20,044 nucleotides of DNA from a virus: positions 1 through 20,044 of IMG/VR virus record IMGVR_UViG_3300046001_004502; one strand, 5' to 3'. Shown here one piece after another: positions 3,303 to 16,995 of this stretch. Each line of letters begins with the position of its first letter. The stretch's first letter is position 1. The notes below the pieces were generated by a model. The model was not told the DNA's origin and did no database searches. It saw nothing but the letters and a program-made list of their open reading frames with translations. The position numbers were made by a program, and so were the translations under genes.

Positions 3303-4031
3303 ATGAAAAAAAATCTATTTGTAATTAATGAAAATGAGAAGGACCGTATTATAAATATGCATAAAAACGCAACTAAAAATTTATATATACCTGAAAATAA
3401 ACTATTGACAGAAGAAAGATTAATTTTGGTTAAAATACAATTACCAGATGGGAAATATCTTGGTAGTGGACAACAAGGATATGAATATAAAATTCTTACG
3501 CTAGATAAAAAAGATACGGGATATATCGTAAAGTCTTTCACACCTTCTAGAGAAGCCGTTACAGACGATCCAGTAACAATTTCAAGTGGAATAACAACAT
3601 CAAAAACTTGGGGTGTTGGGGGTGACTATTATTATGAAGCACCTATTTCTAATGTAGGATCAACTCAACAAGTAGTTGGTCAACAAGAAAAACCAACTAG
3701 ATATAAAAGAGGGGCTTGTGAAACAGGAACCACTCAAGAATGCGCACATGCGATTCAAATAAGGATGAACGAGGAATGTAAGGCCGATATTTTAAATGCC
3801 ACTTTAGTTAATTTTCCTAAAGCAAGAACTGGAACAGAAGGAAACTATAAATTAAAAGAAGATAAAGTTCTTGGATCAGGAACAAAGGCAGTTATTGCCG
3901 CTTGTAATTTACCAAAATTACCAAAAGTTGGTGCCACAACCATAACATCACAAGTATCTGGATTAAACGCAACAATACCTGTTGGAGGAACTTTAACCGA
4001 TAATGATATAATGACTTTAATGAATCAATAA
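3303..4031 (+). CDS. Putative virion protein with N-terminal targeting peptide
   Basis: The frame is open from an ATG at 3234, but that start would be translated through a terminator hairpin, so the ATG at 3303 is chosen, giving 242 residues. The N-terminus (KKNLFVINENEKDRIINMH, residues 2-20) is a hydrophobic patch followed by a charged helix, then IPE at 29-31 and LTE at 35-37, possible prohead-protease-type cut sites. The middle (residues 90-140) is Thr/Gly/Val-rich. A late stretch, 'EDKVLGSGTKAVIAAC', loosely resembles the DG-x-x-G-x-x-T turn of peptidoglycan-binding repeats, and several Cys residues could form disulfides. It is followed after 8 bases by a gene with the same kind of N-terminus. 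Virion location is inferred. Confidence 0.75.
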   Translation: MKKNLFVINENEKDRIINMHKNATKNLYIPENKLLTEERLILVKIQLPDGKYLGSGQQGYEYKILTLDKKDTGYIVKSFTPSREAVTDDPVTISSGITTSKTWGVGGDYYYEAPISNVGSTQQVVGQQEKPTRYKRGACETGTTQECAHAIQIRMNEECKADILNATLVNFPKARTGTEGNYKLKEDKVLGSGTKAVIAACNLPKLPKVGATTITSQVSGLNATIPVGGTLTDNDIMTLMNQ

Positions 4032-4039
4032 AAAAAGAT

Positions 4040-4969
4040 ATGGGAAAAATAATTTTAACCGAAAGACAATATAGGAATTTGAATCAAATTTTAATTGGCA
4101 AAGAAGATGATAGCAAAAAGGGTCGAATAAATGAGGTGGCAAAAACATTTACAGATTTTGATGGTAACAGTGCAATACTTGATAGTACTAAATTTACTCT
4201 TTCATTAAAAGCGATGGTTAATATTGAAGCATTGACAGGTGAAGACTCCAACAGGGAATTACAATTACTTTGGGGTACTGTTTTTACGAAAAAAAAAGGA
4301 AATAATACACTTTTAAGTAACTATGTTAAGGTAAATTGGGTTAGTGATTGGGTTAAGTCAATAATGAAAAGTGAAGATGGAACAGTAGAATATAAATGTG
4401 ATAGTAAAAAATTTAAGTTTACTAAATATGGCAATGAATATAAGCTTGATAGTAATTTCTCATGGATACAGAAGGCATTCGATGAATTATGTGCAATGAC
4501 TGGTGTAGCCCCTGTAGTAGCCCCTGTGGTAGCAGGTGGGGAAACAGTTCCTTGGACTGCGGTCGAAAAAAAACATATAATTGCGTTCCAACGGTGGTGG
4601 TGGCATTTTGTCGAAACTGTAGACCCAGAACCTGGTACAGATGTGGAGGATGTATGTAAAACAAAATTTAAGTCCGCGTTATGTGGAGGAAAACCTTGTA
4701 TTTTGGATCAGGCCGTTGATGGAAAACTTGGAGCAAGTACACAAATATTAATGGACAATACGGTTAATCGATCAAATTTTGAAAAATGGTGGAATACTGG
4801 CAAAAATGCGGTAGAATATAGTACGTTACCCTATAAATGTACTAGCGCTGAAAAAGGATATGTAAATCCAGATAAAAATCCAGATAAAAATCCTGTTGAA
4901 AAACCAATTGTAGGCGGTGGTGGTGGAGGTGGAGCACCATTTGGTGGTCAATATGCTGATATGGTTTAA
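4040..4969 (+). CDS. Putative virion protein with peptidoglycan-binding-like segment
   Basis: A 309-residue protein. It begins GKIILTERQYRNL, matching the N-termini at 6543 and 16549, and reaches an INE triplet at residues 30-32. Residues 35-150 form an unrecognised mixed domain. A low-complexity hinge (VAPVVAPVVAGG) follows, then 'HIIAFQRWWW' and 'AVDGKLGASTQILMD', which together resemble a PG_binding_1-type repeat (Phe-Gln pair, then DG-x-x-G-x-x-T). The C-terminus is a linker with NPDK repeated twice, then eight glycines and the tail GQYADMV. A cell-wall-contacting virion protein would fit, but no catalytic domain is visible. It has no element of its own upstream and is probably cotranscribed with the 3303 gene. 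Confidence 0.8.
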   Translation: MGKIILTERQYRNLNQILIGKEDDSKKGRINEVAKTFTDFDGNSAILDSTKFTLSLKAMVNIEALTGEDSNRELQLLWGTVFTKKKGNNTLLSNYVKVNWVSDWVKSIMKSEDGTVEYKCDSKKFKFTKYGNEYKLDSNFSWIQKAFDELCAMTGVAPVVAPVVAGGETVPWTAVEKKHIIAFQRWWWHFVETVDPEPGTDVEDVCKTKFKSALCGGKPCILDQAVDGKLGASTQILMDNTVNRSNFEKWWNTGKNAVEYSTLPYKCTSAEKGYVNPDKNPDKNPVEKPIVGGGGGGGAPFGGQYADMV

Positions 4970-4972
4970 TAA

Positions 4973-5413
4973 TTATATTTTTTTATAAAAAAAATCATAA
5001 TCATTGTCAGATTTAAGAATTTTATATTCTAATTTTTTATTAATTTTTTGTGAAAAAATATTGTTTTTTTTTGTTATTGATGATAAATAATCATACCCAT
5101 ATTTTTTTCCTAAATTTTCGGTATATCCTCTGATTGTTTTTCCTAACCCCAAATTTCTATATTCTTTTTGAATATACAAATTATGTAAAAACAATGTTAC
5201 AGTTTCTTTTAAAAAATCATAAGTTGTATAATTTTCTATGGTTTCTAAGATTTTTTTTATTTTAACGTCATGATCATACATTACATCAATATCTAAAATA
5301 AATATTTTTCCAATTTCATTATTATTTGTTTTATCATTAATTGTTAATTTAATTCCTGGCCAAATAGTTATATTTCCCTCTATCTTATAATAATAATTTT
5401 CATTTAATGTCAT
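4973..5413 (-). CDS. GNAT-family N-acetyltransferase
   Basis: A 146-residue reverse-strand gene. Residues 75-92 hold the acetyl-CoA-binding core of the GNAT fold: a hydrophobic strand (FLHNLYI) followed by YRNLGLGK, which fits the Q/R-x-x-G-x-G/A loop. The following helix and 'KKYGYDYLSSITKKNN' fit motif A/B. Length is normal for a single-domain GNAT enzyme. The acceptor, which could be a protein amine, a small molecule or a toxin-like target, cannot be told. It is the only other reverse gene besides DUF192 in the window and is even richer in A/T than its neighbours. Its stop is 3 bases from the convergent 4040 gene. Confidence 0.8.
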   Translation of the reverse strand: MTLNENYYYKIEGNITIWPGIKLTINDKTNNNEIGKIFILDIDVMYDHDVKIKKILETIENYTTYDFLKETVTLFLHNLYIQKEYRNLGLGKTIRGYTENLGKKYGYDYLSSITKKNNIFSQKINKKLEYKILKSDNDYDFFYKKI

Positions 5414-5457
5414 ATTTTTAATATAGTAAAATTATGGTAAATAAAAATATTTTTTAT

Positions 5458-5465
5458 TATATTTG
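5458..5465 (+). promoter_or_regulatory. TAnnTTTG promoter box (TATATTTG)
   Basis: TATATTTG ends 4 bases before the ATG at 5470. That spacing would put the transcription start at or next to the start codon. It lies inside the longer open frame that begins at 5434, which argues against that upstream start. Confidence 0.55.
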
Positions 5466-5469
5466 TAAT

Positions 5470-5859
5470 ATGGAAAAAATGATATATCTAGTTAGAGGAA
5501 TACCAGGAAGTGGCAAGACAACTTTTGCAAAACAATTAACACGAAATGTGTTTGAGGCAGACCATTATTTTTATGATAATGACGATAACTACAATTTTAT
5601 TGCATCTGAAATAAAAGAGGCACATAAAGAGTGTCAACAATATGTTGGATATGCGATGGAGTCAAACACACCAAAAATTGCAGTATCAAACACATTTACA
5701 CAAGAGTGGGAACTCCAACCTTATTATGAGTTAGCAATTAAGTATGGTTATTATGTGACCTCTATTATTGTGGAAAATAGACACGGAGGAACAAACAAAC
5801 ATGGAGTTCTAGAAGATAAGATTCAATTAATGAAAGATAGGTTTGAGTTTAAAATATAA
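5470..5859 (+). CDS. P-loop kinase, AAA_33 / polynucleotide-kinase-like
   Basis: The ATG at 5470 is preferred over 5434 because a promoter box lies between them. The 129-residue protein has a Walker A motif, GIPGSGKTT, at residues 10-18, then an acidic 'EADHYF' strand near 29-34, 'AHKECQ', and 'AVSNTFTQEWEL-x-PY', the pattern of the AAA_33/N4BP2-like group related to T4 polynucleotide kinase and adenylylsulfate-type kinases. The domain is short and has no attached phosphatase, so the substrate (5'-OH RNA/DNA end or a small molecule) is uncertain. The neighbouring metallophosphatase 3 bases downstream suggests a kinase/phosphatase pair acting on the same class of end. Confidence 0.85.
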   Translation: MEKMIYLVRGIPGSGKTTFAKQLTRNVFEADHYFYDNDDNYNFIASEIKEAHKECQQYVGYAMESNTPKIAVSNTFTQEWELQPYYELAIKYGYYVTSIIVENRHGGTNKHGVLEDKIQLMKDRFEFKI

Positions 5860-5862
5860 GAA

Positions 5863-6516
5863 ATGAAATTTGATAAAATATTAACTAGTGGGGTTGTTTG
5901 GATTACTTCGGACACCCACTATTCGCACAAAAACATATGTCGTGGAGTTACGGTTTGGAGAACCATAGATGGTGATATTCCAATTGATGCGACCAGAGAT
6001 TTTCCTAATTTGGATGTAATGAATAGTGTTATTGTTGATAACATTAATGAGAAGGTTGGTCCTGATGATACTTTAATTCACTTGGGTGACGTGGCTTTTG
6101 GTGGTGTTGAAAAGATAGGACAATTTTTGGATCGTTTGGTTTGTAAAAACGTTCACCTTGTTTTGGGTAATCACGATCAGAACATAAAAAAAAATAGAGA
6201 GAACACCAAAGATAAATTTTTATCTATTCAAAACTACTTGGAGGTTAATATTGGTGGTGTTGATTTTGTGTTATCGCATTATCCATTATCAAGTTGGAAC
6301 CAACTAAATAAAGGTTCTATTCACCTTCATGGGCACGTACACCTACCAAGAAATAAAAGATTTGGTAAAGGTAAAAAAATGGATGTTGGTATGGATGGTA
6401 ATAATCTTTATCCATATAGTATAAGTGAGATCGTTCATATGATGGATAAACGATGTGTTGAGTCAGAGATGAATGGAGATCACCACTTAGATGTTATTAT
6501 TGATCTTGTGGGTTAA
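5863..6516 (+). CDS. Calcineurin-like metallophosphoesterase
   Basis: A 217-residue protein with the full metal-binding set of the calcineurin-like family: SDTH at residues 16-19, LGD at 74-76, GNHD at 102-105, SHYP at 138-141 and HGHVH at 156-160. These bind two metal ions and support phosphomonoester or phosphodiester hydrolysis. Compact phage members of this kind are usually annotated as phosphoesterases or YfcE/MJ0936-like proteins. It follows the kinase gene with a 3-base gap in one apparent operon, consistent with nucleic-acid-end processing, though the substrate cannot be read from sequence. Confidence 0.93.
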   Translation: MKFDKILTSGVVWITSDTHYSHKNICRGVTVWRTIDGDIPIDATRDFPNLDVMNSVIVDNINEKVGPDDTLIHLGDVAFGGVEKIGQFLDRLVCKNVHLVLGNHDQNIKKNRENTKDKFLSIQNYLEVNIGGVDFVLSHYPLSSWNQLNKGSIHLHGHVHLPRNKRFGKGKKMDVGMDGNNLYPYSISEIVHMMDKRCVESEMNGDHHLDVIIDLVG

Positions 6517-6531
6517 ACCATAACTCCAATA

Positions 6532-6543
6532 TATTTATAAATA
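6532..6543 (+). promoter_or_regulatory. TATTTATAAATA element at the 6543 start
   Basis: The palindrome TATTTATAAATA runs into the ATG at 6543. The same 17 bases, ATATTTATAAATATGAA, occur at the DUF192 start on the other strand. Proposed late-type promoter core giving an almost leaderless mRNA. Confidence 0.5.
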
Positions 6544-7790
6544 TGAAAATCATTATAAGAGAATCACAACTTAATTTAATTAACGAAGCTTTAGGGGTTC
6601 CTGATAATATTTTGGATGCTGCCGATACGTTATATGATATTGTTGAAAGAGACATCAAATCAATAAGAGACATTCAAGATGAGTATAACTTTGATGGTGA
6701 ATTAGAATTTGAATTAGGTGATAAGAAAAAAATCAAAATTGATTCATATACTCTTACAGTAAAAATTGAGGAGATTGAAGATGAAGAAGGGGTCTTAGAT
6801 ATTGTCTCAATGGGAATGGGAGGTGCTTTTGGATTTAATAGGGATGTTTATATGAAAGAAAACGAACCTTCAACAATTTTGGGATTAACAATAACATTTG
6901 CTGTTGGTGAAAATTGGAAACCTGAAGGTCTTATTGAAAAAATGGAAGAAGACAAAGACGAACATGTTGCATCTTTAGCTCATGAAATAAAACACAAATA
7001 TGATAAACAATCAAAACAATTTGGTTTAATTGGTCAAGACGCTGAATATCAAGCAACACAAAGAAGAGGTATTTTTGGAATACCGGTAATTGATAGAGTT
7101 TTTTTTAGATACTTGTATTATATTTCTGGTATTGAAAATCTTGTAAGGCCAACTGAAGTGGCTTACAAATTAAAAAGAAAAAATATTACAAAGTCACAAT
7201 TCAAAGAATTTTTAGAAAATAATGTGGTTTATAAAGAACTCGTTGAAATTAAAAACTTCACATTTGAAGACTTCATCAATCAATTAAAAGAAAGTGAAGA
7301 TAGATTAGATGCTCTTATTGAACACATTGGTGATGACCCATCCGACATGACAATAGATGAAAAAATTAATGTAGTATTAGAAGTAAGTTATATTGATTTA
7401 GTTAATAATAGAATGCAAATGTTTATGACAATGACGGAACATGGGATGGATGATGTTATAAAATTTGGAACTCAACTTGGCATTTTACCTCCAGGGTTGG
7501 AAGGAAATTTGGAGGGAATTCAAAAGACAGATGCAATTAGACAAAAGTTTTTGAAATATGTTATGAAATACGAAAAAAATCCAACCAAATTTTTTGAAGA
7601 TGAAATTGAAAACTTCCAATATGTTGCAAATAAAATGTTAAAGAAAATATCAAAATTATATGCTATGGCAAAAGACGATGAACAAGTTAGTGAATCAATC
7701 ATCAATTGGGAACTTCATCAACAAATTATGGAAAAAAAATATGGAAAAAGAAAAATTGAAACAAAATACAAAAATTGGAATCTTAAATAA
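6543..7790 (+). CDS. Putative virion-associated HExxH zinc protein
   Basis: A 415-residue protein. Residues 1-15 (MKIIIRESQLNLINE) are the clearest example of the N-terminal peptide shared by five proteins here, ending in INE. Residues 55-125 look beta-rich. At 145-154 is LAHEIKHKYD, containing the zincin motif HEIKH (His147, Glu148, His151). A possible third ligand, Glu205, sits in 'RPTEVAY' 54 residues later, a layout like gluzincin-type peptidases. The rest is mostly helical and charged. A metallopeptidase packaged in the virion or used in entry, assembly or lysis is plausible. The family is not one I can name, and catalysis is not proven. No terminator separates it from the phosphoesterase gene, but it has its own TATTTAT element. 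Confidence 0.85.
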   Translation: MKIIIRESQLNLINEALGVPDNILDAADTLYDIVERDIKSIRDIQDEYNFDGELEFELGDKKKIKIDSYTLTVKIEEIEDEEGVLDIVSMGMGGAFGFNRDVYMKENEPSTILGLTITFAVGENWKPEGLIEKMEEDKDEHVASLAHEIKHKYDKQSKQFGLIGQDAEYQATQRRGIFGIPVIDRVFFRYLYYISGIENLVRPTEVAYKLKRKNITKSQFKEFLENNVVYKELVEIKNFTFEDFINQLKESEDRLDALIEHIGDDPSDMTIDEKINVVLEVSYIDLVNNRMQMFMTMTEHGMDDVIKFGTQLGILPPGLEGNLEGIQKTDAIRQKFLKYVMKYEKNPTKFFEDEIENFQYVANKMLKKISKLYAMAKDDEQVSESIINWELHQQIMEKKYGKRKIETKYKNWNLK

Positions 7791-7813
7791 TAAACTAAAA
7801 TCATAGTTTGCTC

Positions 7814-7865
7814 AATACGAGGATTTATTAACCACTAATCCCAATTGTATTCGTATTTATTAGTG
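7814..7865 (+). other. Two interleaved 7-bp inverted repeats (possible pseudoknot)
   Basis: AATACGA (7814-7820) is the reverse complement of TCGTATT (7851-7857), and CACTAAT (7833-7839) is the reverse complement of ATTAGTG (7859-7865). The order A-B-A'-B' is that of a pseudoknot, with loops of 12, 11 and 1 bases. It lies in the 158-base gap between the HExxH gene and the secreted protein gene, just upstream of a weak terminator-like hairpin. Confidence 0.4.
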
Positions 7866-7870
7866 AACTC

Positions 7871-7899
7871 AACCTGCCCGTGGAATATGGGGGTTTCTT
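7871..7899 (+). terminator. Weak terminator-like hairpin
   Basis: AACC (7871-7874) can pair with GGTT (7892-7895) and CCC (7877-7879) with GGG (7889-7891), with a 2-base bulge and a 9-base loop, followed by a short T-rich stretch. It is weaker than the other terminators in the window, but it stands in the expected place, between the 6543 gene and the next TATTTAT element. Confidence 0.35.
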
Positions 7900-7934
7900 A
7901 AAAAGATTCTTCAAGAGAGTAAATAATTTTATTT

Positions 7935-7941
7935 TATTTAT
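7935..7941 (+). promoter_or_regulatory. TATTTAT element
   Basis: TATTTAT ends 7 bases before the ATG at 7949 of the secreted repeat protein. A second copy lies at 7854-7860 inside the interleaved inverted repeats. T-rich surroundings make this match less specific than those at 6532 or 15753. Confidence 0.35.
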
Positions 7942-7948
7942 TTTTACT

Positions 7949-9817
7949 ATGAAGAATATATTGGTTGGACTTTTTGTCCTATTTTCATCTTTCTTATTTT
8001 CTCAATCATGTTCACATACCATACAACGAACCGACACTTGGGGCGATGGTTGGAACGGAGGAACTGTGGCCGTTTCCGTTAATGGAGTAACCGTTTTATC
8101 TAATTTAAGTTGCGCCGGATATGGACCTACTTCTTCTACATTTTCTGCAGCAGTGGGGGCAACAATACGAGTGTACCGCACGGCATCAGGATCATATCCT
8201 TCTGAAATGCGTATACGAGTTATCAATGGAGCAGGATCTACCATAATCAATACCGTTCAACCACTTGCTGGAACCTCAACTTCAGGAGGTCATATAGTGG
8301 CGGGAAGTTGTGCATCAGTATCACCGGGACCTTGTACTAATACCTATTCGTATTTAACGGCTACAATGCCATCAACTCCCGGTTTTTTTTCAGTTGGAAC
8401 ATGCACTTTTCAAGGGGATTACAATACATTTAATAGTGTTGTTGCAGGTAGACAATACAGATCAACTTATAGTTTAGGTGGTTGGATAACAGTAAGACAC
8501 ACAACACCAGGAGGAACTGTGGTTACTTCAGGACCTTCTCCACTAACATGGACCGCTACTATATCAGGGACTTATTACGTTCATTACAATACAAATTCAA
8601 GTTGTGGAACTGCTTCTTCTTGTGGGACAGATTATATTGAATGTTTAACTTGTACTGCACCACCACCCCCATCAAATGATTTAGTGTGTAATTCAACATC
8701 TATTACTTGTGGTCAGTCAATATCAGGGACTACTGTAAACGCAACTAACTCTGGAACGGGTGAAGGTGGATTTTGTTCTGTTAGTCAAACACAACCCGGT
8801 GTTTGGTATGTTATTCCAGGAAACGGACAAATTATGACGGCAAATCTTTGTGCTACCGCATGGGATAGTAAAATGTCTGTATTTTCAGGGGTAGGGTGCG
8901 GAAGTCTAACTTGTGTAGGGGGTAATGATGATTTTGGTCCTGCTTGTGGTAGTTCATCAGCCTCATATTCATGGTCTTCTGTGGTTGGAACAAATTACTA
9001 TATATTAGTTCATGGGTATAGTACAAGTAGTAGTTTTTCTATTAATGTAAATTGTGTTGCCCCTCCAACACCAGGCCCATGCATTAATACTATTTCGTAT
9101 GGAACACAAAGTTTACCTGTATTTGGTGGAATATCATACACTACCGTACCTTGTCAGTTTGCTGGTGAATACTCAACTTGGAGTGGAGCCGTGGTAGGAA
9201 CACCATATATTGCTATGACTACGGTTGCAACTGATTGGATAACAGTAAGAAGTGGAGCATATAATGGAACTGTTGTTGCTGTTGGATTAGGACCATTATC
9301 CTTTACTCCGACAAACAATAATACCTTATACATACACGTTAATACAAACTCACTATGTGGAACAGTAAGTGTATGTAGAGATGTTTCTGTAACTAGAATG
9401 TCTGCATTACCTATTGAATTGTTATCGTTTGAAGGTAAGAAACAAGTTAACTCAAATATGTTATATTGGTCAACAGCGTCTGAACATAATAGTAGTCACT
9501 TTATTATTGAAAAGAGTGTGGATGGTTTTAAATGGAGTGATATTGGACAAGTACAATCTGCTGGTAACTCAACTCAAAAAATAGATTATAGTTTAGAAGA
9601 TAAAGATGTATCTCAAGTTATCAACTACTACAGATTACATCAATACGATATAGATGGTGTGGATGAGGTATTTGGACCAATAGCGATCAACAATAGAGAT
9701 AGAATAAACATCATTGCTAAGAGAATTAATTTAGCGGGTCAAGAGGTTAATGAGAATGCAACCGGAATAATTATAGAAATTTATGAGGACGGAAGTATAA
9801 AAAGAATTATAAGGTAA
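7949..9817 (+). CDS. Secreted repeat protein with type IX secretion-like C-terminus
   Basis: The start is ATG 7949, not the upstream in-frame GTG at 7880, because it opens a clean signal peptide (residues 1-19, ending FLFSQ). The 622 residues then show: 'DTWGDGWNG' (29-37), a motif common in Bacteroidota surface proteins; two homologous domains at about 128-231 and 376-481, each with 'WITVR', 'Y-x-HVNTNS-x-CGT' and paired cysteines; between them (242-369) a domain opening 'SNDLVCNSTSITCG' like Bacteroidota pre-peptidase-type modules; and 'LPIELLSFEGK' (487-497) with 'YYRLHQYDIDG'. The last 40 residues (GQEV, then GIIIEIYEDGSIKRIIR) resemble a shortened type IX sorting domain lacking the usual PNP strand. 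It is probably acquired from a host and displayed on, or aimed at, the cell surface. A virion adhesin is the alternative. Confidence 0.85.
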   Translation: MKNILVGLFVLFSSFLFSQSCSHTIQRTDTWGDGWNGGTVAVSVNGVTVLSNLSCAGYGPTSSTFSAAVGATIRVYRTASGSYPSEMRIRVINGAGSTIINTVQPLAGTSTSGGHIVAGSCASVSPGPCTNTYSYLTATMPSTPGFFSVGTCTFQGDYNTFNSVVAGRQYRSTYSLGGWITVRHTTPGGTVVTSGPSPLTWTATISGTYYVHYNTNSSCGTASSCGTDYIECLTCTAPPPPSNDLVCNSTSITCGQSISGTTVNATNSGTGEGGFCSVSQTQPGVWYVIPGNGQIMTANLCATAWDSKMSVFSGVGCGSLTCVGGNDDFGPACGSSSASYSWSSVVGTNYYILVHGYSTSSSFSINVNCVAPPTPGPCINTISYGTQSLPVFGGISYTTVPCQFAGEYSTWSGAVVGTPYIAMTTVATDWITVRSGAYNGTVVAVGLGPLSFTPTNNNTLYIHVNTNSLCGTVSVCRDVSVTRMSALPIELLSFEGKKQVNSNMLYWSTASEHNSSHFIIEKSVDGFKWSDIGQVQSAGNSTQKIDYSLEDKDVSQVINYYRLHQYDIDGVDEVFGPIAINNRDRINIIAKRINLAGQEVNENATGIIIEIYEDGSIKRIIR

Positions 9818-9910: not shown

Positions 9911-9916
9911 TCTTAT

Positions 9917-10262: not shown

Positions 10263-10484
10263 ATGAAAGAAAGAGAAGTAATTTACGGAGTGTGTGATAA
10301 GACTGGATCTTGTGATTCCTACTTTGGGTTTTTCAAAAATGAAAAAGATGCTGAACACGAGGTTGAAGTTCAAGCTAATAGACTCAAGGAAGACTTGGGT
10401 ATGATGGATATTGACATTCAAACGGACCGAGCATTATTCGATGGTAAATTAGTAATAGTAATTCATTCATATGTGTTAAGATGA
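10263..10484 (+). CDS. Unknown 73-residue protein
   Basis: A small protein reading 'EREVIYGVCDKTGSCDSYFGFFKNEKDAEHEV', that is, two strands and a helix with two cysteines six residues apart, then 'DGKLVIVIHSYVLR' as a final strand. It looks like a compact alpha/beta domain, but I do not recognise the family. The stop overlaps the ATG of the next gene (ATGA), so the two are translationally coupled. Confidence 0.8.
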   Translation: MKEREVIYGVCDKTGSCDSYFGFFKNEKDAEHEVEVQANRLKEDLGMMDIDIQTDRALFDGKLVIVIHSYVLR

Positions 10485-11167
10485 TAAACCCAACAGGAAA
10501 AAAATTAGAAAAAATTATCTTTAAATTGTTTGACGATGCAAGTCAAGGGGTTGATAGATATAATCATAACGATAGTTTGTGGTTAATCTTTACCAATGAG
10601 ATGAAATGGGTTGTTGAATACACTAAAGACCAAACTCTATGGTATAACTATAACTTCTTTAAAGATGAGATGGAGTTAATTGGTTTGGATTGTGTTGAAG
10701 ATAAAGACCTTATTCAAAAATGGTTTGAGTCAAGATTTTTGGGAATGCCAAAGGTTGAAGAGGCTTTTGACCCATTTTTCGATCAAGACCAATATGTTGA
10801 AGACGTTATTCAAAATGGAGTGAAAGATATCTCTAGTGTATTATATAAAGAGTTACTCAGCGTTGAAGACACCATTCAAAATGGGGTGAAACACACCGAG
10901 GAGGGATTGAGGCCTGATGACTCTGACGTTGAAGACACCATTCAAAATGGGGTGAAACTTACCAAAAGTACAATAATGAGTCAAGATTCTAAAATTGAAA
11001 ACACCATTCAAAATGGGGTGAAAGAGACTATTGGCACACTACGGCGTACTGCTAAGTGGGGTGTTGATGACATCATCCAAAATGGTGTAAAAGAAACTCA
11101 TGACGATTGTTCAAATAACATTGCAAGAGTTGAAGGTATAGTTAGAATAGGTGAAAAATTAAATTAA
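10481..11167 (+). CDS. Protein with six tandem 22-residue VEDxIQNGVK repeats
   Basis: A 228-residue protein. Residues 1-95 form a mixed domain ('NHNDSLWLIFTNEMKWVVEY', 'TLWYNYNFFKDE') that I cannot name. From residue 106 a ten-residue core (VED-x-IQNGVK) recurs at 106, 128, 150, 172, 195 and 217, i.e. every 22 residues with one 23-residue spacing; the last copy is degenerate (VEGIVRIGEK). At the DNA level the cores are nearly identical over 30 bases, with variable 36-39-base linkers. Twenty-two is two 11-residue turns, which suits a long amphipathic or coiled helix. Starts within the stop of the previous gene. Function unknown. Confidence 0.88.
   Translation: MINPTGKKLEKIIFKLFDDASQGVDRYNHNDSLWLIFTNEMKWVVEYTKDQTLWYNYNFFKDEMELIGLDCVEDKDLIQKWFESRFLGMPKVEEAFDPFFDQDQYVEDVIQNGVKDISSVLYKELLSVEDTIQNGVKHTEEGLRPDDSDVEDTIQNGVKLTKSTIMSQDSKIENTIQNGVKETIGTLRRTAKWGVDDIIQNGVKETHDDCSNNIARVEGIVRIGEKLN
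10796..11161 (+). repeat. Coding tandem repeat, 66-bp unit, six copies
   Basis: Units begin at 10796, 10862, 10928, 10994, 11063 and 11129 (periods 66, 66, 66, 69, 66). Copies 2-4 share CACCATTCAAAATGGGGTGA exactly; copy 1, copy 5 and especially copy 6 have diverged. The 69-base period adds one codon, keeping the frame. Confidence 0.9.
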
Positions 11168-11203
11168 TAATAGAAGTAGTAAACATTATTAGAAAATAAT
11201 ATG

Positions 11204-11211: not shown

Positions 11212-11215
11212 TGGA

Positions 11216-11392: not shown

Positions 11393-11406
11393 AATAATAA
11401 ATTGTT

Positions 11407-11712
11407 ATGAAAACAATAGAAACTAAATTTGGAACATATGTAGATATGGAAACAGAAACAAGCACAAAATTAACTGGTGATAAAATCACGGTATTTGTAG
11501 AAAGATTAAAAAAAATCGGTATTGATGTAAAACTATCAGGAAACTTTCCTTGGGTTTATATTGATGAGATCTGTGGTAAAAGAGTTACTGAAAAGTTTGA
11601 AGGGAATCACGGGTTTACATTAATATTTTTACCAGGTAGAAACGATAGTCCACCATCTGAATTTACTGATATTACAGAGATATTCAAACTAATAAGAAAA
11701 TACGCAAAATGA
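11407..11712 (+). CDS. Unknown 101-residue phage protein
   Basis: A compact protein with 'IGIDVKLSGNFPWVYIDEICGKRVTEKFEGNHGFTLIFLPGR' in the middle, a strand-turn-strand pattern with conserved-looking Trp, Gly-Asn-His and Arg residues, and a C-terminal helix 'DITEIFKLIRKYAK'. I have the impression of a widespread Bacteroidota-phage hypothetical family but cannot name a function. Its stop codon overlaps the ATG at 11709 by 4 bases. Confidence 0.8.
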   Translation: MKTIETKFGTYVDMETETSTKLTGDKITVFVERLKKIGIDVKLSGNFPWVYIDEICGKRVTEKFEGNHGFTLIFLPGRNDSPPSEFTDITEIFKLIRKYAK

Positions 11713-12233
11713 ATTTAGACAAACTAACAATGGACGAACTTATTTCATTAAGAAATGAAATTCAAGGAAAAATACATTCCTATGAAGATGGGTATTTGTA
11801 TATCTGTTCTGTTCGTCAGTTTGGTAGTGTATGGGAAGAAAAACCAAGTAGTTTATATGGTTTAAAAGAACTTTGTGATTCATATTATGGTGACAATGGT
11901 ATTGTTGATGTTTATACCAACAATCCAAATTTAGAATTTCCTGAAATGGAGTTTCAAAATTATGGTGACGTTATGTTTATTAAATCAGAAGATGATTACC
12001 GTGACTGGGTTAAATACAACAAAGAAAAAAACTTTATTGATGATGTAACACAACGACTTGATGAGTGGGATGAAAGTAAAAATTTACCATTTAAATATCG
12101 CCCTTCTTTTGCGCCAATTTGGACAAGAGAAGATCTTAATGAATGGGTTACAGGGTTTGAAAGTAAGACATGGGATTTTACTGAACCAAGATCTATGAAG
12201 GTAAAATATTCTGAAGAAGATGGTGAAGATTAA
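11709..12233 (+). CDS. Unknown 174-residue acidic protein
   Basis: The N-terminal 'LDKLTMDELISLRNEIQGKIHSYEDG' is a clear helix that could pair as a coiled coil; the following 'YLYICSVRQFGSVWEEKPSSLYGLKELCDSYYG' begins a mixed, Trp- and Tyr-rich acidic domain. No catalytic motif is recognised. It is translationally coupled to the preceding gene and 13 bases before the receiver-domain gene, so it belongs to the same operon. Confidence 0.8.
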   Translation: MNLDKLTMDELISLRNEIQGKIHSYEDGYLYICSVRQFGSVWEEKPSSLYGLKELCDSYYGDNGIVDVYTNNPNLEFPEMEFQNYGDVMFIKSEDDYRDWVKYNKEKNFIDDVTQRLDEWDESKNLPFKYRPSFAPIWTREDLNEWVTGFESKTWDFTEPRSMKVKYSEEDGED

Positions 12234-12246
12234 AAAATAAAAAATT

Positions 12247-12657
12247 ATGACAAAAGTAAAAATCTATCTAGATGATGTTCGTACACCGGTAGATCCAAGT
12301 TGGGTGGTTGTTCGTTCTTATGATGAATTTGTTAGTAAGATAAATGAAATTGGTTTAGAGAACATTGAACTAATTTCATTGGATCACGATTTGGGTGATA
12401 GTGCAATGAGAGAATGGCACTACGGCGTTGTAAAAAACTACACCATCAATTACGATAATATAACAGAAAAAACTGGTATGGATTGCACCAAGTGGTTAGT
12501 GAATCAATGGTTAGATGGTAAACATATTGTTGAAGTTGTGGTTCATTCAGCAAATGCGGTGGGTAGTGGAAACATGATGGGTTACATCAACAATTACCGA
12601 CACTTGAATAGAATGGAACAAAATTGTGTAAGAGTTAAAATTGAACATACAGTATAA
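12247..12657 (+). CDS. Cyclic-phosphate-processing receiver-like (cREC) protein
   Basis: A 136-residue receiver-fold protein: 'KIYLDDVRTP' (5-14) with Asp9-Asp10, 'ISLDHDLG' (43-50) with Asp46-His47-Asp48, and 'VVVHSANAVGSGNM' (97-110). These match the family described by Burroughs and Aravind as a cyclic-phosphate-processing receiver domain found in RNA-repair gene neighbourhoods. The extra His residues set it apart from ordinary two-component receivers, and the 60-75 region is a small insert. The proposed role is removing or opening 2',3'-cyclic phosphates at RNA breaks; this is a bioinformatic prediction. An RNA ligase gene two places downstream supports the assignment. Confidence 0.8.
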   Translation: MTKVKIYLDDVRTPVDPSWVVVRSYDEFVSKINEIGLENIELISLDHDLGDSAMREWHYGVVKNYTINYDNITEKTGMDCTKWLVNQWLDGKHIVEVVVHSANAVGSGNMMGYINNYRHLNRMEQNCVRVKIEHTV

Positions 12658-12667
12658 AAATAAAATT

Positions 12668-12928
12668 ATGGAATTAGAAAAATTTGAACAAGCAAAAAAA
12701 GTTAAAGAAAACCTTGAAAGGTTAAAAACACGGAAACATAAATTGGAATCCGCACTTAAATCTTGTAGTTTGGCGGTTAAGATTAATTATACGTATGGAG
12801 GTAAATTCCGAACGCCAGGTGAAGTGGGATTATATGATAAAGAGATTATAAAAGAAATGATGATCAAAGAACTTGAAAAGTTGGATGAAGAAATAAATTT
12901 AGTTAAAGAAGAATTTGAAAAAGTATAA
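12668..12928 (+). CDS. Small coiled-coil protein
   Basis: An 86-residue protein; the ATG at 12668 is preferred over one at 12641 that would overlap the receiver gene. Residues 1-33 and 60-86 are charged, heptad-like helices rich in Glu, Lys and Leu; the middle ('INYTYGGKFRTPGEVGLY') is a short loop or hairpin, so the whole probably folds as a helical hairpin. It lies between the receiver protein and the RNA ligase with gaps of 10 and 3 bases, so it may be a partner of one of them. No family recognised. Confidence 0.78.
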   Translation: MELEKFEQAKKVKENLERLKTRKHKLESALKSCSLAVKINYTYGGKFRTPGEVGLYDKEIIKEMMIKELEKLDEEINLVKEEFEKV

Positions 12929-12931
12929 GAA

Positions 12932-14065
12932 ATGGAAAATTTAAATAGTGTATGTTATGTTGGTGCAATCGGAGAGGTTAAGCCAATAGAAGGGGCAGAT
13001 AACATAGAACTTGTTATGGTTAATGGTTGGAATGCCATAACTAAAAAAGGAGAATATAAAGTTGATGATTTGGTTGTTGTTGCGACCACCGATGCGGTTA
13101 TACCTGTTGAGTTATCCGACTTAATTGGTGTAACTGGTTACTTAAGAAAGGGTCAGAGAGTTAGAACTGTTAAACTTCGTGGAGTTTACTCAGAGTGTTT
13201 AATCATATCTTTAAAATATACATTTAAATCAGAAATATCTATCAATGGTTTTGTTGATGGACAAGATATGATGGGTTTACTTAATGTCACTAAATACGAA
13301 CCACCAGTTAAAATGGTCCAGTTAAGTGGGGGTAGAAAATTCAAATACCACCAAAACCCTAACTTCCATGTTTACTACAAGTTTCCCAACTTAAAGAATG
13401 TACCTGAAATGTTTAACGAGGAAGACATAGTTACTTTTACTCGTAAACTTCACGGAACAAATGCTCGTTATGGTATCGTTAAAAAGAAAAGATTATCCTT
13501 GTGGGATTATGTAAGAAAGTTATTTGGAAACAAATGGGCTAACTACGAATATGTTTATGGATCTCACAACGTAGAGAAAGGTTCTGACTCTCAAGGGTTT
13601 TACAAATCAGATGTATGGAAAACAATCGCAGATAATTACAAAATAAAAGATAAACTATGGGATTATGTTAAGACATATGGTAGTCCTGACTATTTGGGTG
13701 ATGGGTTAATCATCTATGGTGAGATATATGGTCATGGTATACAAAAAAATTATGATTATGGTTTAACTGATGTTAAATTTGCTGGTTTTGATGTTGAGTT
13801 AAATGGTAATTACCGACCTTATTACGATGAAAAGAACGTTTTCAAATCTTTGGGATTACAAAGAGTTGAGGTTCTTTATTTGGGGACTTGGTCTAAAGAA
13901 AAACAAGATAAATACGTATTCAATAACAATATAGAGGGAACCAAAGTTCCACACGAAGGTGTTGTTGTTAAATCTGTTACTGGTGATAGACACAAAGTAG
14001 GTAAAGTGATCAACCCTGATTATAGTATATTCTGTGAAAAAAATAATGTAGGTGACTCCCATTGA
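12932..14065 (+). CDS. RNA ligase, Deinococcus Rnl (Rnl5)-like
   Basis: A 377-residue ATP-dependent RNA ligase. Residues 1-125 form an OB-like N-terminal domain ('GADNIELVMVNGWNAITKKGEYKVDDLVVV'), and the nucleotidyltransferase domain follows: motif I RKLHGTN with Lys172 as the predicted adenylated lysine, motif III 'IIYGEIYG' (260-267), motif IV 'EGVVVKS' (342-348) and a motif V-like Lys near 355-358. An N-terminal OB domain plus C-terminal ligase domain is the layout of Deinococcus radiodurans Rnl rather than T4 Rnl1 or Rnl2. It would seal nicked or broken RNA such as tRNA cut by host defence. The last codons lie within a terminator stem. Confidence 0.9.
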   Translation: MENLNSVCYVGAIGEVKPIEGADNIELVMVNGWNAITKKGEYKVDDLVVVATTDAVIPVELSDLIGVTGYLRKGQRVRTVKLRGVYSECLIISLKYTFKSEISINGFVDGQDMMGLLNVTKYEPPVKMVQLSGGRKFKYHQNPNFHVYYKFPNLKNVPEMFNEEDIVTFTRKLHGTNARYGIVKKKRLSLWDYVRKLFGNKWANYEYVYGSHNVEKGSDSQGFYKSDVWKTIADNYKIKDKLWDYVKTYGSPDYLGDGLIIYGEIYGHGIQKNYDYGLTDVKFAGFDVELNGNYRPYYDEKNVFKSLGLQRVEVLYLGTWSKEKQDKYVFNNNIEGTKVPHEGVVVKSVTGDRHKVGKVINPDYSIFCEKNNVGDSH

Positions 14066-14078
14066 TGGAGTCACTTTT
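14052..14078 (+). terminator. Intrinsic terminator overlapping the RNA ligase stop
   Basis: GTGACTCC (14052-14059) pairs perfectly with GGAGTCAC (14067-14074) around a 7-base loop, followed by TTTT. The left arm encodes the ligase's last residues and the stop codon TGA (14063-14065) is in the loop. Confidence 0.9.
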
Positions 14079-14122
14079 ATTACTTACTATTAAATTAAAA
14101 AAAATTAATACGTATTAAGATA

Positions 14123-14323
14123 ATGGAAAATAAAAAAAACACCCCTAAATTAATTTTAAACTCTGAAGAACATGAACTTATTGGGTTTTATATATCCGAA
14201 CTTGGATTTTTAATGATGTCAATATGTTCACAATCAGGTAAACGAACTAACTATAACTTGGGTGAACACAACACAGAACAAAATGTTTTTATAGATCTAA
14301 TTAAAAAACTTAACTATAAATAA
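14123..14323 (+). CDS. Unknown 66-residue protein
   Basis: A small protein with a central hydrophobic amphipathic region ('ELIGFYISELGFLMMSICS') that is probably a buried helix rather than a membrane span, and a polar second half. Not recognised. It is the first gene after the RNA ligase terminator; no convincing promoter box was found in the 58 bases upstream. Confidence 0.65.
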   Translation: MENKKNTPKLILNSEEHELIGFYISELGFLMMSICSQSGKRTNYNLGEHNTEQNVFIDLIKKLNYK

Positions 14324-14365
14324 ATTGAATTGATTAGTTCACTTTTTTAATTACATTTAAATAAA

Positions 14366-14560
14366 ATGAAACAAGATTTAAACAAATTTGCATTCTTTTC
14401 AAAAAACTTTTTGTGGTATTCCATAATGTTAGTGATTGAGAATGATTATAATCCACTTAATTGGTGGTTATTTAGTGGGTTTTTCCCTATAGTAATTACC
14501 ATATTTTTTGAATTATATATACTTGGAACATCATTAAACGAAACAGAAACAGAAACATAA
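14366..14560 (+). CDS. Small membrane protein (64 residues)
   Basis: Residues 12-25 and 31-53 are hydrophobic; the second ('WWLFSGFFPIVITIFFELYI') is a convincing membrane span and the first a shorter amphipathic or membrane segment. The C-terminus is a polar NETETET tail. It lies just upstream of the AAA+ ATPase gene (20-base gap). Function unknown. Confidence 0.65.
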   Translation: MKQDLNKFAFFSKNFLWYSIMLVIENDYNPLNWWLFSGFFPIVITIFFELYILGTSLNETETET

Positions 14561-14580
14561 AATTAAAAAAATATTATACA

Positions 14581-15564
14581 ATGAGAGAAAACGAAATTGA
14601 TGATTATATTGAAGAGTTAAAAATGATTGAAGAAATGGATAATATAGAAATGACAAGAAATAGATTTATTAAAAACGATGACACAAAGACACCAACTAAT
14701 TCACCAACATGTTGGGGAACTTTACAAGACGAAGAATTTGCCCCCGCATTTACATCCGTCCCAAAAGTTCCGGCTGGAATTTATGAAATCATTTACAATA
14801 GACAATTAAATTGTAACACAATAAAAAAACAACCATTTAAAACAGATGAGTTATACCAATTACCTTCATATGAGATCCAAGATATCCTCAAGGATATCCA
14901 AAATTTTTGGGATCGTCGTGACAAATATAGAGAATATAATTTTGTTCATAAGCGTGGGATTCTAATGTATGGTGAACCAGGATGTGGTAAGTCAGGAATC
15001 ATACAGTTAATTTCAAAACAACTAATTGAAAATGATGGGATTATTCTAAACATTAAAGATCATGACGATGTTGAATACTTTATTGATTTCATTGCAACAT
15101 TTAGAAAAATTGAAACCAACAGACCTTTAATTGTTTTGTTGGAAGATATTGATTCAATTGCCGGCGAAAATAATCATGCGACAAGTAAGTTATTAAACAT
15201 TCTTGACGGTGTGAAACAAATTGAAGACGTTGTTTATATTGCAACAACAAACTATCCTGAGAAACTACAAGACCGTATCACAAACAGACCATCTCGTTTT
15301 GATAGACGATACAAAGTGGAACTTCCAAACGAAGAGATTAGAAACGCTTATATCCGTCACAAATTAACAGAAGATGATTTGAAAAATGTTAATATTGATG
15401 AATGGGTAAAAAGAACTGAAGGAATGTCTCTTTCACACTTGAAAGAAGTTGTAATTTCAACTATAGTTATGGGAAGAGAATTTGAGGAAGTGATGGATAA
15501 CCTCGAAGGATTAAAAAAAGCACCAACAATTAAAGAATTTAAAAAAGTAGGATTTGGAAAATGA
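14581..15564 (+). CDS. AAA+ ATPase
   Basis: A 327-residue protein with one AAA domain: Walker A GEPGCGKS (131-138), Walker B IVLLEDID (184-191), sensor 1 ATTNYPE (221-227) and 'NRPSRFDRR' (235-243), which carries the arginine-finger-type residues. The layout, with an N-terminal region of about 120 residues before the domain, resembles the BCS1/FtsH/katanin-type AAA proteins found in several large phages, where they act as unfoldases or remodelling enzymes. No protease domain is present. The N-terminus is acidic and helical and may bind a partner. A small membrane protein gene overlaps its stop codon. Confidence 0.92.
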   Translation: MRENEIDDYIEELKMIEEMDNIEMTRNRFIKNDDTKTPTNSPTCWGTLQDEEFAPAFTSVPKVPAGIYEIIYNRQLNCNTIKKQPFKTDELYQLPSYEIQDILKDIQNFWDRRDKYREYNFVHKRGILMYGEPGCGKSGIIQLISKQLIENDGIILNIKDHDDVEYFIDFIATFRKIETNRPLIVLLEDIDSIAGENNHATSKLLNILDGVKQIEDVVYIATTNYPEKLQDRITNRPSRFDRRYKVELPNEEIRNAYIRHKLTEDDLKNVNIDEWVKRTEGMSLSHLKEVVISTIVMGREFEEVMDNLEGLKKAPTIKEFKKVGFGK

Positions 15565-15713
15565 AAAAAGGAATTTATTATATACCGTTATTTTTAATAT
15601 TATTATTTATAATGGTCTGGACATTTTATGTTAGTAATTATTTAGGGTTTGTAATGTCGACAATATCAATGTTATTATTAGGTGAAGTTTATTATTTAAG
15701 ATTTATAAAATAA
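15561..15713 (+). CDS. Small two-span membrane protein (50 residues)
   Basis: The ATG at 15561 overlaps the ATPase stop (ATGA), and the frame ends with TAA at 15711-15713. After a short basic N-terminus (MKKG) two hydrophobic stretches follow, about residues 5-22 and 25-42, separated by a short polar turn; the sequence ends RFIK. Composition and coupling to the ATPase gene make a real gene likely. It could anchor the ATPase or be a holin-like protein; neither is shown. Confidence 0.7.
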   Translation: MKKGIYYIPLFLILLFIMVWTFYVSNYLGFVMSTISMLLLGEVYYLRFIK

Positions 15714-15726
15714 TTTATAAAAATTT

Positions 15727-15751
15727 CCCCATCTCAAAAAGGTGGGGTTTT
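15727..15751 (+). terminator. Intrinsic terminator
   Basis: CCCCATCT (15727-15734) pairs with AGGTGGGG (15740-15747), 8 pairs including one G-T, loop CAAAA, then TTTT. Its T-run leads straight into the TATTTAT element of the next gene. Confidence 0.85.
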
Positions 15752-15752
15752 A

Positions 15753-15759
15753 TATTTAT
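15753..15759 (+). promoter_or_regulatory. TATTTAT element
   Basis: TATTTAT ends 5 bases before the ATG at 15765 and directly follows a terminator. Same arrangement as at 3284 and 16537. Confidence 0.5.
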
Positions 15760-15764
15760 AGAAT

Positions 15765-16283
15765 ATGAAAACATTAATAGAAAGAATTGTCAGAGAATAT
15801 CTTTTGGAGGAAAGAAAATTTCCTAAACAAAAAGGTAGTGAAGTCTATGATAAAATGTTATATAATATAATATCCACATACCATCAGTGGTTTGATCGAC
15901 ATGGGGATAATTCGTATAAGGAAAATATTGATTTGTTTTATGAAAAAAATAATTCAGATAACGATTATAGGATTGGTGTTAGTGATAAGTTATTGATACC
16001 GATAATTAAAAAAGATATTGGTAAGATTATTGATAGCTTTAAAACGCACAATCCTTGTAATAAAAGAATCATATTTACAAAAAGAATGGTTAATAATGAA
16101 GATGAGGAATACTTTGATGTTATTGAATTTCTCATACAAAAAGATAGTAATGAATTAAAAATTGTTAGTTCTGCTTTTTCTGATGACGGTAACTTTTTAT
16201 ATTTTGGTGTTAGACCAAGAAGTAAAAAAGAAAATTTAAAAGAAAATTCATGTAAAAGTGGGGATATAGTTGTGGAATTGTAA
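15765..16283 (+). CDS. Putative virion protein with N-terminal targeting peptide
   Basis: A 172-residue protein. The N-terminus MKTLIERIVREYLLE is an amphipathic helix ending in L-x-E at residue 15, the same position as in the proteins at 6543 and 16549, though the internal residues differ. The remaining domain has alternating strands and helices ('RIGVSDKLLIPIIKKDIGKIIDSF', 'KRIIFTKRM') and is not recognised. It forms a single-gene unit between a terminator and a host-type promoter. Function unknown; virion location inferred from the N-terminus. Confidence 0.75.
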   Translation: MKTLIERIVREYLLEERKFPKQKGSEVYDKMLYNIISTYHQWFDRHGDNSYKENIDLFYEKNNSDNDYRIGVSDKLLIPIIKKDIGKIIDSFKTHNPCNKRIIFTKRMVNNEDEEYFDVIEFLIQKDSNELKIVSSAFSDDGNFLYFGVRPRSKKENLKENSCKSGDIVVEL

Positions 16284-16299
16284 AAAAGTATTATCTTTG
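16270..16299 (+). promoter_or_regulatory. Two-part Bacteroidota promoter with no gene start after it
   Basis: GTTG ending at 16272, a 19-base spacer and TATCTTTG at 16292-16299 fit the Bacteroidota TTTG-N19-TAnnTTTG layout. Unlike most other TAnnTTTG boxes here, no ATG follows within a few bases and no open frame follows, so a non-coding transcript is expected. Confidence 0.55.
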
Positions 16300-16302
16300 T
16301 AA

Positions 16303-16434
16303 GACAATTGATTGTTATTGGTTCAATCATTAAAAAATACCAATCGTAGGGTGTCTGGCGTAATCCGACACAGGTTGAAAATCCCACCCCTAGGTGAAAT
16401 TGATCCCCACTGAAATATGTGGGGATTTTTTTTT
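16303..16434 (+). ncRNA. Predicted structured RNA with pseudoknot and terminator
   Basis: From the promoter to a strong terminator there is no usable reading frame but much pairing. TGATTG (16309-16314) pairs with CAATCA (16324-16329), and ATTGGT in its loop (16317-16322) pairs with ACCAAT (16339-16344), forming an H-type pseudoknot with an A-rich loop. Next, TAGGGTG (16347-16353) can pair with CACCCCTA (16385-16392), or GTGTC...GACAC (16351-16371) can form a local hairpin instead, so two folds compete. The terminator is ATCCCCAC/GTGGGGAT (16403-16426) plus nine Ts. A small phage RNA or an attenuator is possible; no known family is recognised. Confidence 0.5.
16403..16434 (+). terminator. Intrinsic terminator of the structured RNA
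   Basis: ATCCCCAC (16403-16410) pairs perfectly with GTGGGGAT (16419-16426), 8-base loop, followed by a run of Ts to 16434. Confidence 0.92.
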
Positions 16435-16437
16435 AAG

Positions 16438-16525
16438 AGACCCCATCTTAATTGATGGGCTTTAGGGCCGTTATCCGTTAGGGTAACGATTTAAAGGGGG
16501 GAATTCGCTACTCCCCCTTTTTTTT
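16438..16525 (+). ncRNA. Second structured RNA segment ending in a terminator
   Basis: CCCATC (16442-16447) pairs with GATGGG (16454-16459); CTTTA (16460-16464) with TAAAG (16492-16496), enclosing CGTTATCC/GGGTAACG (16469-16488, 8 pairs, GTTA loop). GGGGGA (16497-16502) pairs with TCCCCC (16512-16517) to form a terminator with a T-run. CCCC at 16441-16444 could instead pair with the same G-run, so mutually exclusive folds, as in riboswitch or attenuator platforms, are possible. No separate promoter is visible; it may be reached by read-through of the preceding terminator. No open frame. Confidence 0.42.
16493..16525 (+). terminator. Strong intrinsic terminator
   Basis: GGGGGA/TCCCCC with flanking A/T pairs, a 9-base loop and eight Ts (16518-16525). 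It isolates the following gene, which has its own TATTTAT element. Confidence 0.9.
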
Positions 16526-16536
16526 ATTTAACTAAG

Positions 16537-16543
16537 TATTTAT
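16537..16543 (+). promoter_or_regulatory. TATTTAT element
   Basis: TATTTAT ends 5 bases before the ATG at 16549, downstream of a strong terminator. Confidence 0.5.
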
Positions 16544-16548
16544 CATAT

Positions 16549-16995
16549 ATGAAAATAATAATTTCAGAACGTCAACAAAAGTTAATTAAAGAAAATTCTG
16601 TTAAGGGATCTTTAATTGATATGATTAAAGAAGATGGTTGGAAAAGTGTTTACGGATTGGTTGGGGGGATTGATAATCTTAAAAAACTTGTTGGAATTGA
16701 ATCACCAATAGATTTTCTTAATTTATTTAATGATTTGGATGTTATTAATAGTGAAGAAAAACCTAATTTGACTTTATTTAGATATGAAATAGGAAATAAT
16801 CTAATGGTTTACGATGATGAATTTGATTTTGTTTACATCAATTATAGTATAATTTGGTCATTTTTAGAAAAAGTTTTTGGATTTAACTACTCTGAAATAC
16901 AGGAAGTCACACAGGAATGGTTGTCTGAGGCCTACGATTTAAGGGGAGTCACAACAGATGAGGTAGATGAGGAGGATGATGAGTTGGTTGGATGA
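16549..16995 (+). CDS. Putative virion protein with N-terminal targeting peptide; possible frameshifted 3' end
   Basis: A 148-residue protein beginning MKIIISERQQKLIKE, nearly the same as the 6543 N-terminus, with IKE ending at residue 15. The body is a mixed domain ('IDFLNLFNDLDVINSEEKPNLTLFRYEIGNNLMVYDDEFDFVYI') followed by a helix and 'EWLSEAYDLRGVT', then a very acidic tail. Just past the acidic tail, in the +1 frame, the DNA encodes 'WLDEVYNLRGII' and a stop inside the following terminator, a second copy of the same motif. A one-base change near 16984 would join them into a slightly longer protein. Function unknown. Confidence 0.78.
   Translation: MKIIISERQQKLIKENSVKGSLIDMIKEDGWKSVYGLVGGIDNLKKLVGIESPIDFLNLFNDLDVINSEEKPNLTLFRYEIGNNLMVYDDEFDFVYINYSIIWSFLEKVFGFNYSEIQEVTQEWLSEAYDLRGVTTDEVDEEDDELVG

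Follow-up and report, generated by a model that had tools for sequence, protein, structure and literature searches.

Interchangeable N-terminal peptides ending in [I/L]-x-E on dozens of unrelated proteins of large phages suggest a T4-like loading of proteins into the head

Why do five proteins encoded on one piece of viral DNA, with bodies unrelated to each other, all begin with a short peptide that reaches [I/L]-x-E? The DNA (IMG/VR record IMGVR_UViG_3300046001_004502, 20,044 bases, a fragment of a larger genome; "the window" denotes this whole stretch) was read in an initial annotation as coding for a T4-like packaging tag, and this suggestion is now well supported, short of demonstration. 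The T4 internal proteins IPII and IPIII carry a capsid-targeting sequence (CTS) that is cut by the prohead protease gp21. Proteins injected with phage DNA act before phage gene expression, the examples from T4 and P1 including anti-restriction factors, and they are hard to predict since they have no common fold. The results given here suggest that large phages put a few interchangeable tags on dozens of unrelated proteins, which would be loaded into the head and injected. That the tags are capsid-targeting propeptides cut by a prohead protease in the manner of T4, several of them exchangeable and carried by about a tenth of the genes, is considered highly probable.

The five N-termini and the positions of their [I/L]-x-E were confirmed from the sequence (proteins are named after the first base of their genes, all on the + strand): residue 15 in proteins 6543, 16549 and 15765; residue 32 in 4040; residue 31 or 37 in 3303. 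When the five bodies were compared with each other by blastp the best E was only 1.1, in agreement with their reported unrelatedness. The peptides themselves had been taken for one common sequence, which proved wrong; three types were found: A (6543, 16549 and 4040; pattern KIIIxExQ...), C (15765; pattern LIxRIxRE...) and E (3303; pattern NExEKxRIxxMHxxATxxxYIxE). These and the families B, the commonest tag, and D have no evident similarity to each other.

Enrichment of the motif was scored on genes called with a simple custom script. In residues 5–36 of 28 called genes of the window, [IL]xE was observed 22 times against 14.3 in shuffled sequences (z 2.4); since the control [IL]E scored z 2.6, the window alone does not single out [IL]xE. 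In four related contigs the N-terminal z of [IL]xE was 7.3 (G001), 7.0 (G002), 5.1 and 4.4; control [IL]xD: −0.1 to 1.2 (G001 1.2, G002 0.7); controls [IL]E and [IL]xxE: from −3.5 ([IL]E, G002) to +2.8 ([IL]xxE, G003), with −0.2 and −3.5 for [IL]E and 0.8 and 1.5 for [IL]xxE in G001 and G002, respectively. Stretches of 40 residues were further compared between proteins with unrelated bodies, and pairs scoring at least 50 were counted: G001 – 52 at residues 1–40 vs 0, 1 and 0 internally; G002 – 112 vs 0, 2 and 1; G018 – 102 vs 1 and 2, the motif z of the last being 7.4.

Regular expressions for the five families were written by hand after inspection of G001, G002, the window and, in part, G003 and G005; those for C and D already fix a mostly aliphatic residue as the opening position of the motif but leave its E free. 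Tagged genes were: 31/290 in G001 (272,576 bp; genes of at least 60 amino acids) vs 0/958 internal windows; 36/328 in G002 (304,365 bp; same limit) vs 0/1,081; 11/156 in G003 vs 0/523. With the expressions unchanged, 27/302 genes of G018 (292 kb) were tagged vs 0/1,020 internal windows; in 25 of the 27 the site lay where expected, and one of the remaining two had V-x-E. This contig was intended as an unseen test genome, and its tag B matches are not fully independent because its short loci L230 and L233 were already in the tag B pool. The five tagged proteins of the initial annotation are thus real, and too few, as 31, 36 and 27 tagged genes in three relatives indicate. Of the 67 proteins tagged in G001 and G002, 64 have an [IL]xE ending at residues 10–40, compared with 120/259 and 116/292 untagged ones.

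The end of the tag was examined on tag B, by a scan of IMG/VR for its first 12 residues (at least 120 stretches), which gave at least 125 unique N-termini on bodies in at least 102 homology clusters; as the search pattern fixes residues 1–12, only residues 13 onward count as evidence. The following values hold among the matches listed (125). The [IL]xE ended at residue 22 in 103, 26 in 15, 23 in 2 and 21 in 1; [VMF]xE was found in 3 and no site in 1. Where the site lay at 26, a four-residue insertion was present and the ending was preserved. Counted by cluster, the site lay at 20–26 in 99/102 and exactly at 22 in 89/102, while 10-residue control windows further in held a site in 2 to 9 of 122–125 sequences. 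Position 22 was E in 108/125 (entropy 0.77 bits), position 21 was free (2.8 bits) and the entropy was 3.6–4.1 bits from 24 on. Conservation of tag B ends at the [I/L]-x-E boundary.

For all classes together, overlapping loci were pooled and reduced to unique open reading frames (ORFs), of which 475 were tagged, with bodies falling into 263 clusters; each cluster was then counted once for every class it held. Clusters with the site: B – 149/162, C – 16/16, D – 10/10, A – 70/92; controls 40 residues further in: B – 2/162, C – 1/16, D – 1/10, A – 20/91. Type A is by these numbers the least certain tag.

More than one tag class was found in 15 of the 263 body clusters; some of the 15 were joined via shared repeat or zinc-ribbon-like parts and not at the boundary, and several are exact there. 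Protein 16549 is one example of a swapped tag. Its N-terminus, MKIIISERQQKLIKE|NSVK, is a type A tag (residues 1–15, 16549–16593, ending I-K-E), followed by a body without known family (16594–16995); the same body has tag B in L015/L081 and tag C in L107 and G002. The L015/L081 homologue is 77% identical, on a contig whose identity is 97% in 6543 and 100% in 15765. Four columns are invariant when 8 homologues bearing tags A, B and C are aligned, and E15 is among them.

The second example is protein 6543, MKIIIRESQLNLINE|ALGV, with a type A tag (residues 1–15, 6543–6587, ending I-N-E) and a zincin-like body without known family (6588–7787) that after the predicted cut would begin with residue 16, ALGVPDNILDAADTLYDIVER. 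Relatives were found at 74 loci in viral contigs, mostly with tag A and in L189 with tag C (MRELIRQVLRE|ALGVP vs MRNIVITESQLKLITE|ALGVP). Among 101 matches (overlapping loci counted), [IL]xE preceded [AVI][LV]GVP in 99 of 99 N-termini, which comprised 35 distinct tags 15–23 residues long; in an alignment of 40 sequences E15 and H147-E148-xx-H151 were invariant. Since tag type and length vary before a constant boundary, the tag does not behave as part of the 6543 fold, and AlphaFold2 (AF2) agrees: mean predicted local distance difference test (pLDDT) 87 overall; 52 for residues 1–10, 70 for 11–20, 91–97 for 21–90; parts of the C-terminus are also low. The tags being swapped on the same body, the peptide does not behave as a conserved part of a folded domain, which the initial annotation had named as a refuting condition. 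Foldseek of the 6543 model against PDB gave nothing at E ≤ 0.001 (best E 0.24); VIA-align gave a best Z of 5.6, with helical bundles aligned mainly over residues 163–381; no match was found in INPHARED. The putative term zincin-like refers to the invariant HExxH only.

Protein 15765, MKTLIERIVREYLLE|ERKF, has a type C tag (residues 1–15, 15765–15809, ending L-L-E) on a body without known family (15810–16283; sub-cut-off Pfam matches only); V-R-E at residue 11 is a second candidate site. YLLE or YLFE ended at residue 15 in 18 of 19 related matches, and the 19th (G003, 30% identical) had another N-terminus. Protein 4040 has a type A tag (residues 1–32, 4040–4135, ending I-N-E) and a body at 4136–4969; in the orthologues of L010 and L012 LNE is fixed at 32 though the flanks differ. 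Protein 3303 has a type E tag (residues 1–31, 3303–3395, ending I-P-E, predicted cut after E31) and a body, the predicted mature protein, at 3396–4031; a start at 3303, not 3234, is favoured by the orthologue in L055, the upstream sequence of which is different. LTE at 37 is a second candidate site. The homologous site reads YLTE, YLME, YLFE or YVFE in relatives; in L008, L009, L013 and L080 it is missing, and VSE and LME or LIE follow within a few residues. From these sequences IPE at 31 is probably the homologous site of 3303. For the bodies of 3303 and 4040, both without known family, nothing was found in PHROGs or Pfam (E 0.1) or NCBIfam (E 0.01). Protein 2472 (MIKNTFKHTINILNE) was tried as a sixth tagged protein and rejected: its full length is conserved in relatives, and L057 has D instead of E.

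The window had a blastp match (E 1e-5) in G001, G002 and G003 for 19, 20 and 20 of 33 ORFs tested, respectively, many in the same order; G001 is 69% identical in 6543 and 79% in an AAA protein. A block of G001 holds Gp23, a T4-type portal and Peptidase_S77, with Ribosomal_S21 (bS21) on the opposite strand within it, and in the bS21 jumbo phages a portal/S77/Gp23 block with bS21 on the opposite strand is described (PMC9723584, seen in part). The clade of G001 is, from this likeness, probably the same as, or near to, the bS21 jumbo phages of freshwater Bacteroidota; N-terminal tags are not mentioned in the available part of PMC9723584. The window reads as a piece of a jumbo phage of a T4-headed lineage whose long relatives resemble the bS21 phages, and the hosts of these phages are probably freshwater Bacteroidota.

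A gp21-like prohead protease, for which the initial annotation had proposed a search, was found in the lineage: Peptidase_S77 and gp23 occur together in the same 15 of 22 tag-bearing relatives, the other 7 having neither. The S77 profile gave E 1e-23 in G001 and 3e-23 in G002 (T4 as positive control, 4e-113), and it matched in 13/14 further tag-bearing contigs of at least 154 kb, these being all of at least 150 kb among the matches listed, G002 apart; the exception was also without gp23. None over the cut-off was found in six smaller relatives. Of 16 tag-bearing records none passed the cut-off for S78, the second prohead protease in common use; G019 had a match below it.

The cleavage site of the capsid protein is of the same kind as the tag ending. 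T4 removes 65 residues from gp23, 10 from gp24 and 9 from gp21 (PMC9958956, seen in part), and in the T4 sequences these cuts fall exactly after FLTE, LLRE and LLIE, respectively. FLTE|A of T4 gp23 aligns with LINE|A in the capsid protein of G001 and G002 (site placed by alignment); LINE|A was also present in 9/9 further major capsid protein pieces, from 8 of 13 contigs (14 loci). The S77 proteins themselves have I-L-[IV]-E near the start in all 12 N-termini recovered, from 13 loci; cf. LLIE of T4 gp21.

The following course may be proposed. As the head is assembled, the N-terminal tag would attach its protein to the prohead scaffold or shell. The S77 protease would remove the tag by a cut after [I/L]-x-E, at the time when it processes the major capsid protein after LINE and probably itself after L-[IV]-E; the trimmed proteins would stay in the head with the DNA and be injected into the next host. 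Families A–E would do the same job; they are exchanged between proteins, by recombination close to the boundary.

How this compares with known systems is as follows. The T4 CTS is alike in being a short N-terminal peptide on unrelated proteins, ending in [IL]xE, together with Gp23, the T4-type portal and S77. What differs is the extent: about a tenth of the genes carry tags here, which belong to five families or more and are exchanged between homologues, against one CTS pair recovered in T4. In the pair test T4 showed MKTYQEFIAE on two proteins (score 59) and in all six N-terminal pairs of at least 50 vs 2 and 0 internal; several of the other pairs look like homing endonucleases whose bodies were not joined by the filter. 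The tag expressions matched 0/218 T4 genes; with peptides as short as these, a common origin can be neither proved nor excluded. In SPN3US and phiKZ, head proteins are cut by a prohead protease and their propeptides are inferred to target the head; several propeptides of their head and ejection proteins exceed 100 residues, and the motif examples are A-x-E and S-x-E (PMC5694885, seen in part). In phiKZ no tags were found in 274 genes (1 match of the expressions in 907 internal windows); pair test: 1 N-terminal vs 2 and 0 internal; motif z −0.7; the S77 profile search gave no match, which does not show absence. The first 30 residues of P1 DarB suffice to put a reporter into the head, and the Dar N-termini differ from the present tags in having no consensus among them (PMC9024508, seen in part).

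Flavobacterium phage immuto (0/190 genes) and Tenacibaculum phage pT24 (0/249) were without these tags. Both have S77, as does T4, so that S77 does not imply these tag sequences; the huge phages LR756500, LR756511 and LR756508 also have S77. N-terminal sets of its own (FDLKKFLVENKLT... among them) were seen on unrelated proteins of immuto (NC_055915.1, L166–L169): FDLKKFLVENKLTxNSKLLxE on four, a MKKSQLRxIIKE-like one on several and a QKLAGIITES-like one on two; being in culture, immuto would lend itself to a test of the tag idea. The own set of pT24 (L306–L318) is MRDIxxYIKExL / MKKISIYLEEKI, with an [IL]xE z of 4.2, and its S77 lies in a 531-residue frame. A search of INPHARED with 23- and 31-residue tag consensus peptides gave nothing; such short queries are insensitive, and absence from isolates is not shown by it. 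No paper on this tag set was found by title or abstract in the open-licence PMC literature.

What are the tagged proteins? Pfam and PHROG results were obtained as counts per family, the matching member not being named. Among the 67 tagged proteins of G001 and G002, Pfam gave one phage lysozyme and one DUF6576 match (E 0.001), at least 65 being without family; 17 PHROG families, three of them endolysin and seven tail tape measure, were each matched by one member. The lysozyme match lies in G001:256758-257675, where the domain follows a type A tag; this peptidoglycan hydrolase might be carried inside the head. The structural/replication block, the limits of which were set by eye, comprises 127/298 genes in G001 and 152/340 in G002; the tagged genes lie almost all outside it, as would suit accessory cargo. 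The tag B pattern was found once (L374, DFKH01000024.1) in 84,980 bacterial and archaeal genomes, and tag B is therefore in essence a viral feature. L374 measures 3.2 kb, comes from a bin assigned to an alphaproteobacterium and codes for two adjacent tag-like N-termini and a putative sigma factor; it is probably a phage contig in a bacterial bin.

Several results weigh against the reading of the tags as capsid-targeting propeptides. The internal residues 61–92 are also enriched in [IL]xE (z 1.8 in G001, 3.1 in G002), and part of the excess is therefore general. T4, a proven user, reached a motif z of only 1.0, so that this test neither detects nor excludes a small system. For tag A, 22/92 clusters show no [IL]xE where it is expected; FNE or FND takes its place in one zinc-ribbon-like family. 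The S77 profile, found in relatives, has no match within the 20-kb window, and contigs of 66 and 90 kb that are 97–100% identical in 6543 are without S77 or gp23. Tail tape measure families matched by a tagged protein would not fit head cargo, and of the tagged genes only 1/31 (G001) and 1/36 (G002) are inside the structural/replication block. In tags B and C the same codon is used at identical residues in 0.65–0.78 of cases vs 0.51–0.58 expected, which leaves room for recent copying or a nucleotide-level role.

The alternative that survives best takes the tags for uncut docking helices that bind another phage structure or compartment, e.g., a replication factory or a nucleus-like shell, with the glutamate as helix cap. 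Tags B, C and D do look like basic amphipathic helices, residues 7–16 of 6543 are helical in the AF2 model, at low confidence, and the type A tags without [IL]xE would fit; it is nevertheless unlikely, as conservation ends with [IL]xE, whose middle residue is free, the boundary shifts as a unit with a four-residue gain or a tag swap, a tripeptide of this kind also marks the capsid cleavage site, and every gp23-bearing tag carrier also has S77. Still less credit is given to inhibitory or degradation signals for another protease or unfoldase, by which the proteins would be activated or destroyed in the cell. The AAA ATPase gene at 14581–15564, in the same conserved region and kept in relatives, would offer a partner; its product matches AAA and other P-loop families and no peptidase family, the tags share their cut motif with the capsid protein, and zymogen control would be odd for tag B with its at least 102 unrelated body clusters. 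The least probable explanation, that the common 5' ends act at the nucleotide level, as translation enhancers or hot spots of recombination, with the peptide as by-product, has for it the codon use of tags B and C and the recombination implied by tag swapping, and is opposed by the fifth to third of codons that still differ at identical residues, by mostly conservative substitutions (K/R, I/V/L), by strict residues at the first and third places of the motif with a free one between, and by a boundary that tracks protein positions even across insertions.

Three other genes of the window were noted. The protein of 10481–11167 has five copies of a 22–23 residue repeat containing [VI]-[ED]-[DN]-x-IQNGVK, the DNA copies being 76–100% identical to the reference copy at spacings of 66, 66, 66 and 69; its NCBIfam matches were sub-cut-off only. 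A 622-residue protein (7949–9817; G001 relative 1,345 residues) begins with a signal-peptide-like N-terminus (MKNILVGLFVLFSSFLFSQSC) and has a C-terminus that presumably recalls the type IX sorting domains of Bacteroidota; is it a phage-coded secreted protein? A lipoprotein-like N-terminus (MKNIFYLLVSIMLLSSC) is encoded at 2749–3183 and conserved in three relatives, with a sub-cut-off NCBIfam match only.

If the tags are capsid-targeting propeptides, sequence alone nominates 31, 36 and 27 candidates for injected proteins in three genomes, several peptides become candidates for cleavable loading tags in Bacteroidota phages, and the question of protein injection by jumbo phages becomes directly testable by proteomics. 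Each virion of this widespread clade would then carry a cocktail of some thirty or more mostly unknown proteins, addressed by a small vocabulary of exchangeable cleavable tags; with tag choice fluid in evolution, recombination of a gene with any tag would turn its protein into an effector delivered by the head, and the injected proteome could be read from the genome alone, a wider view that is held with slightly better than even confidence.

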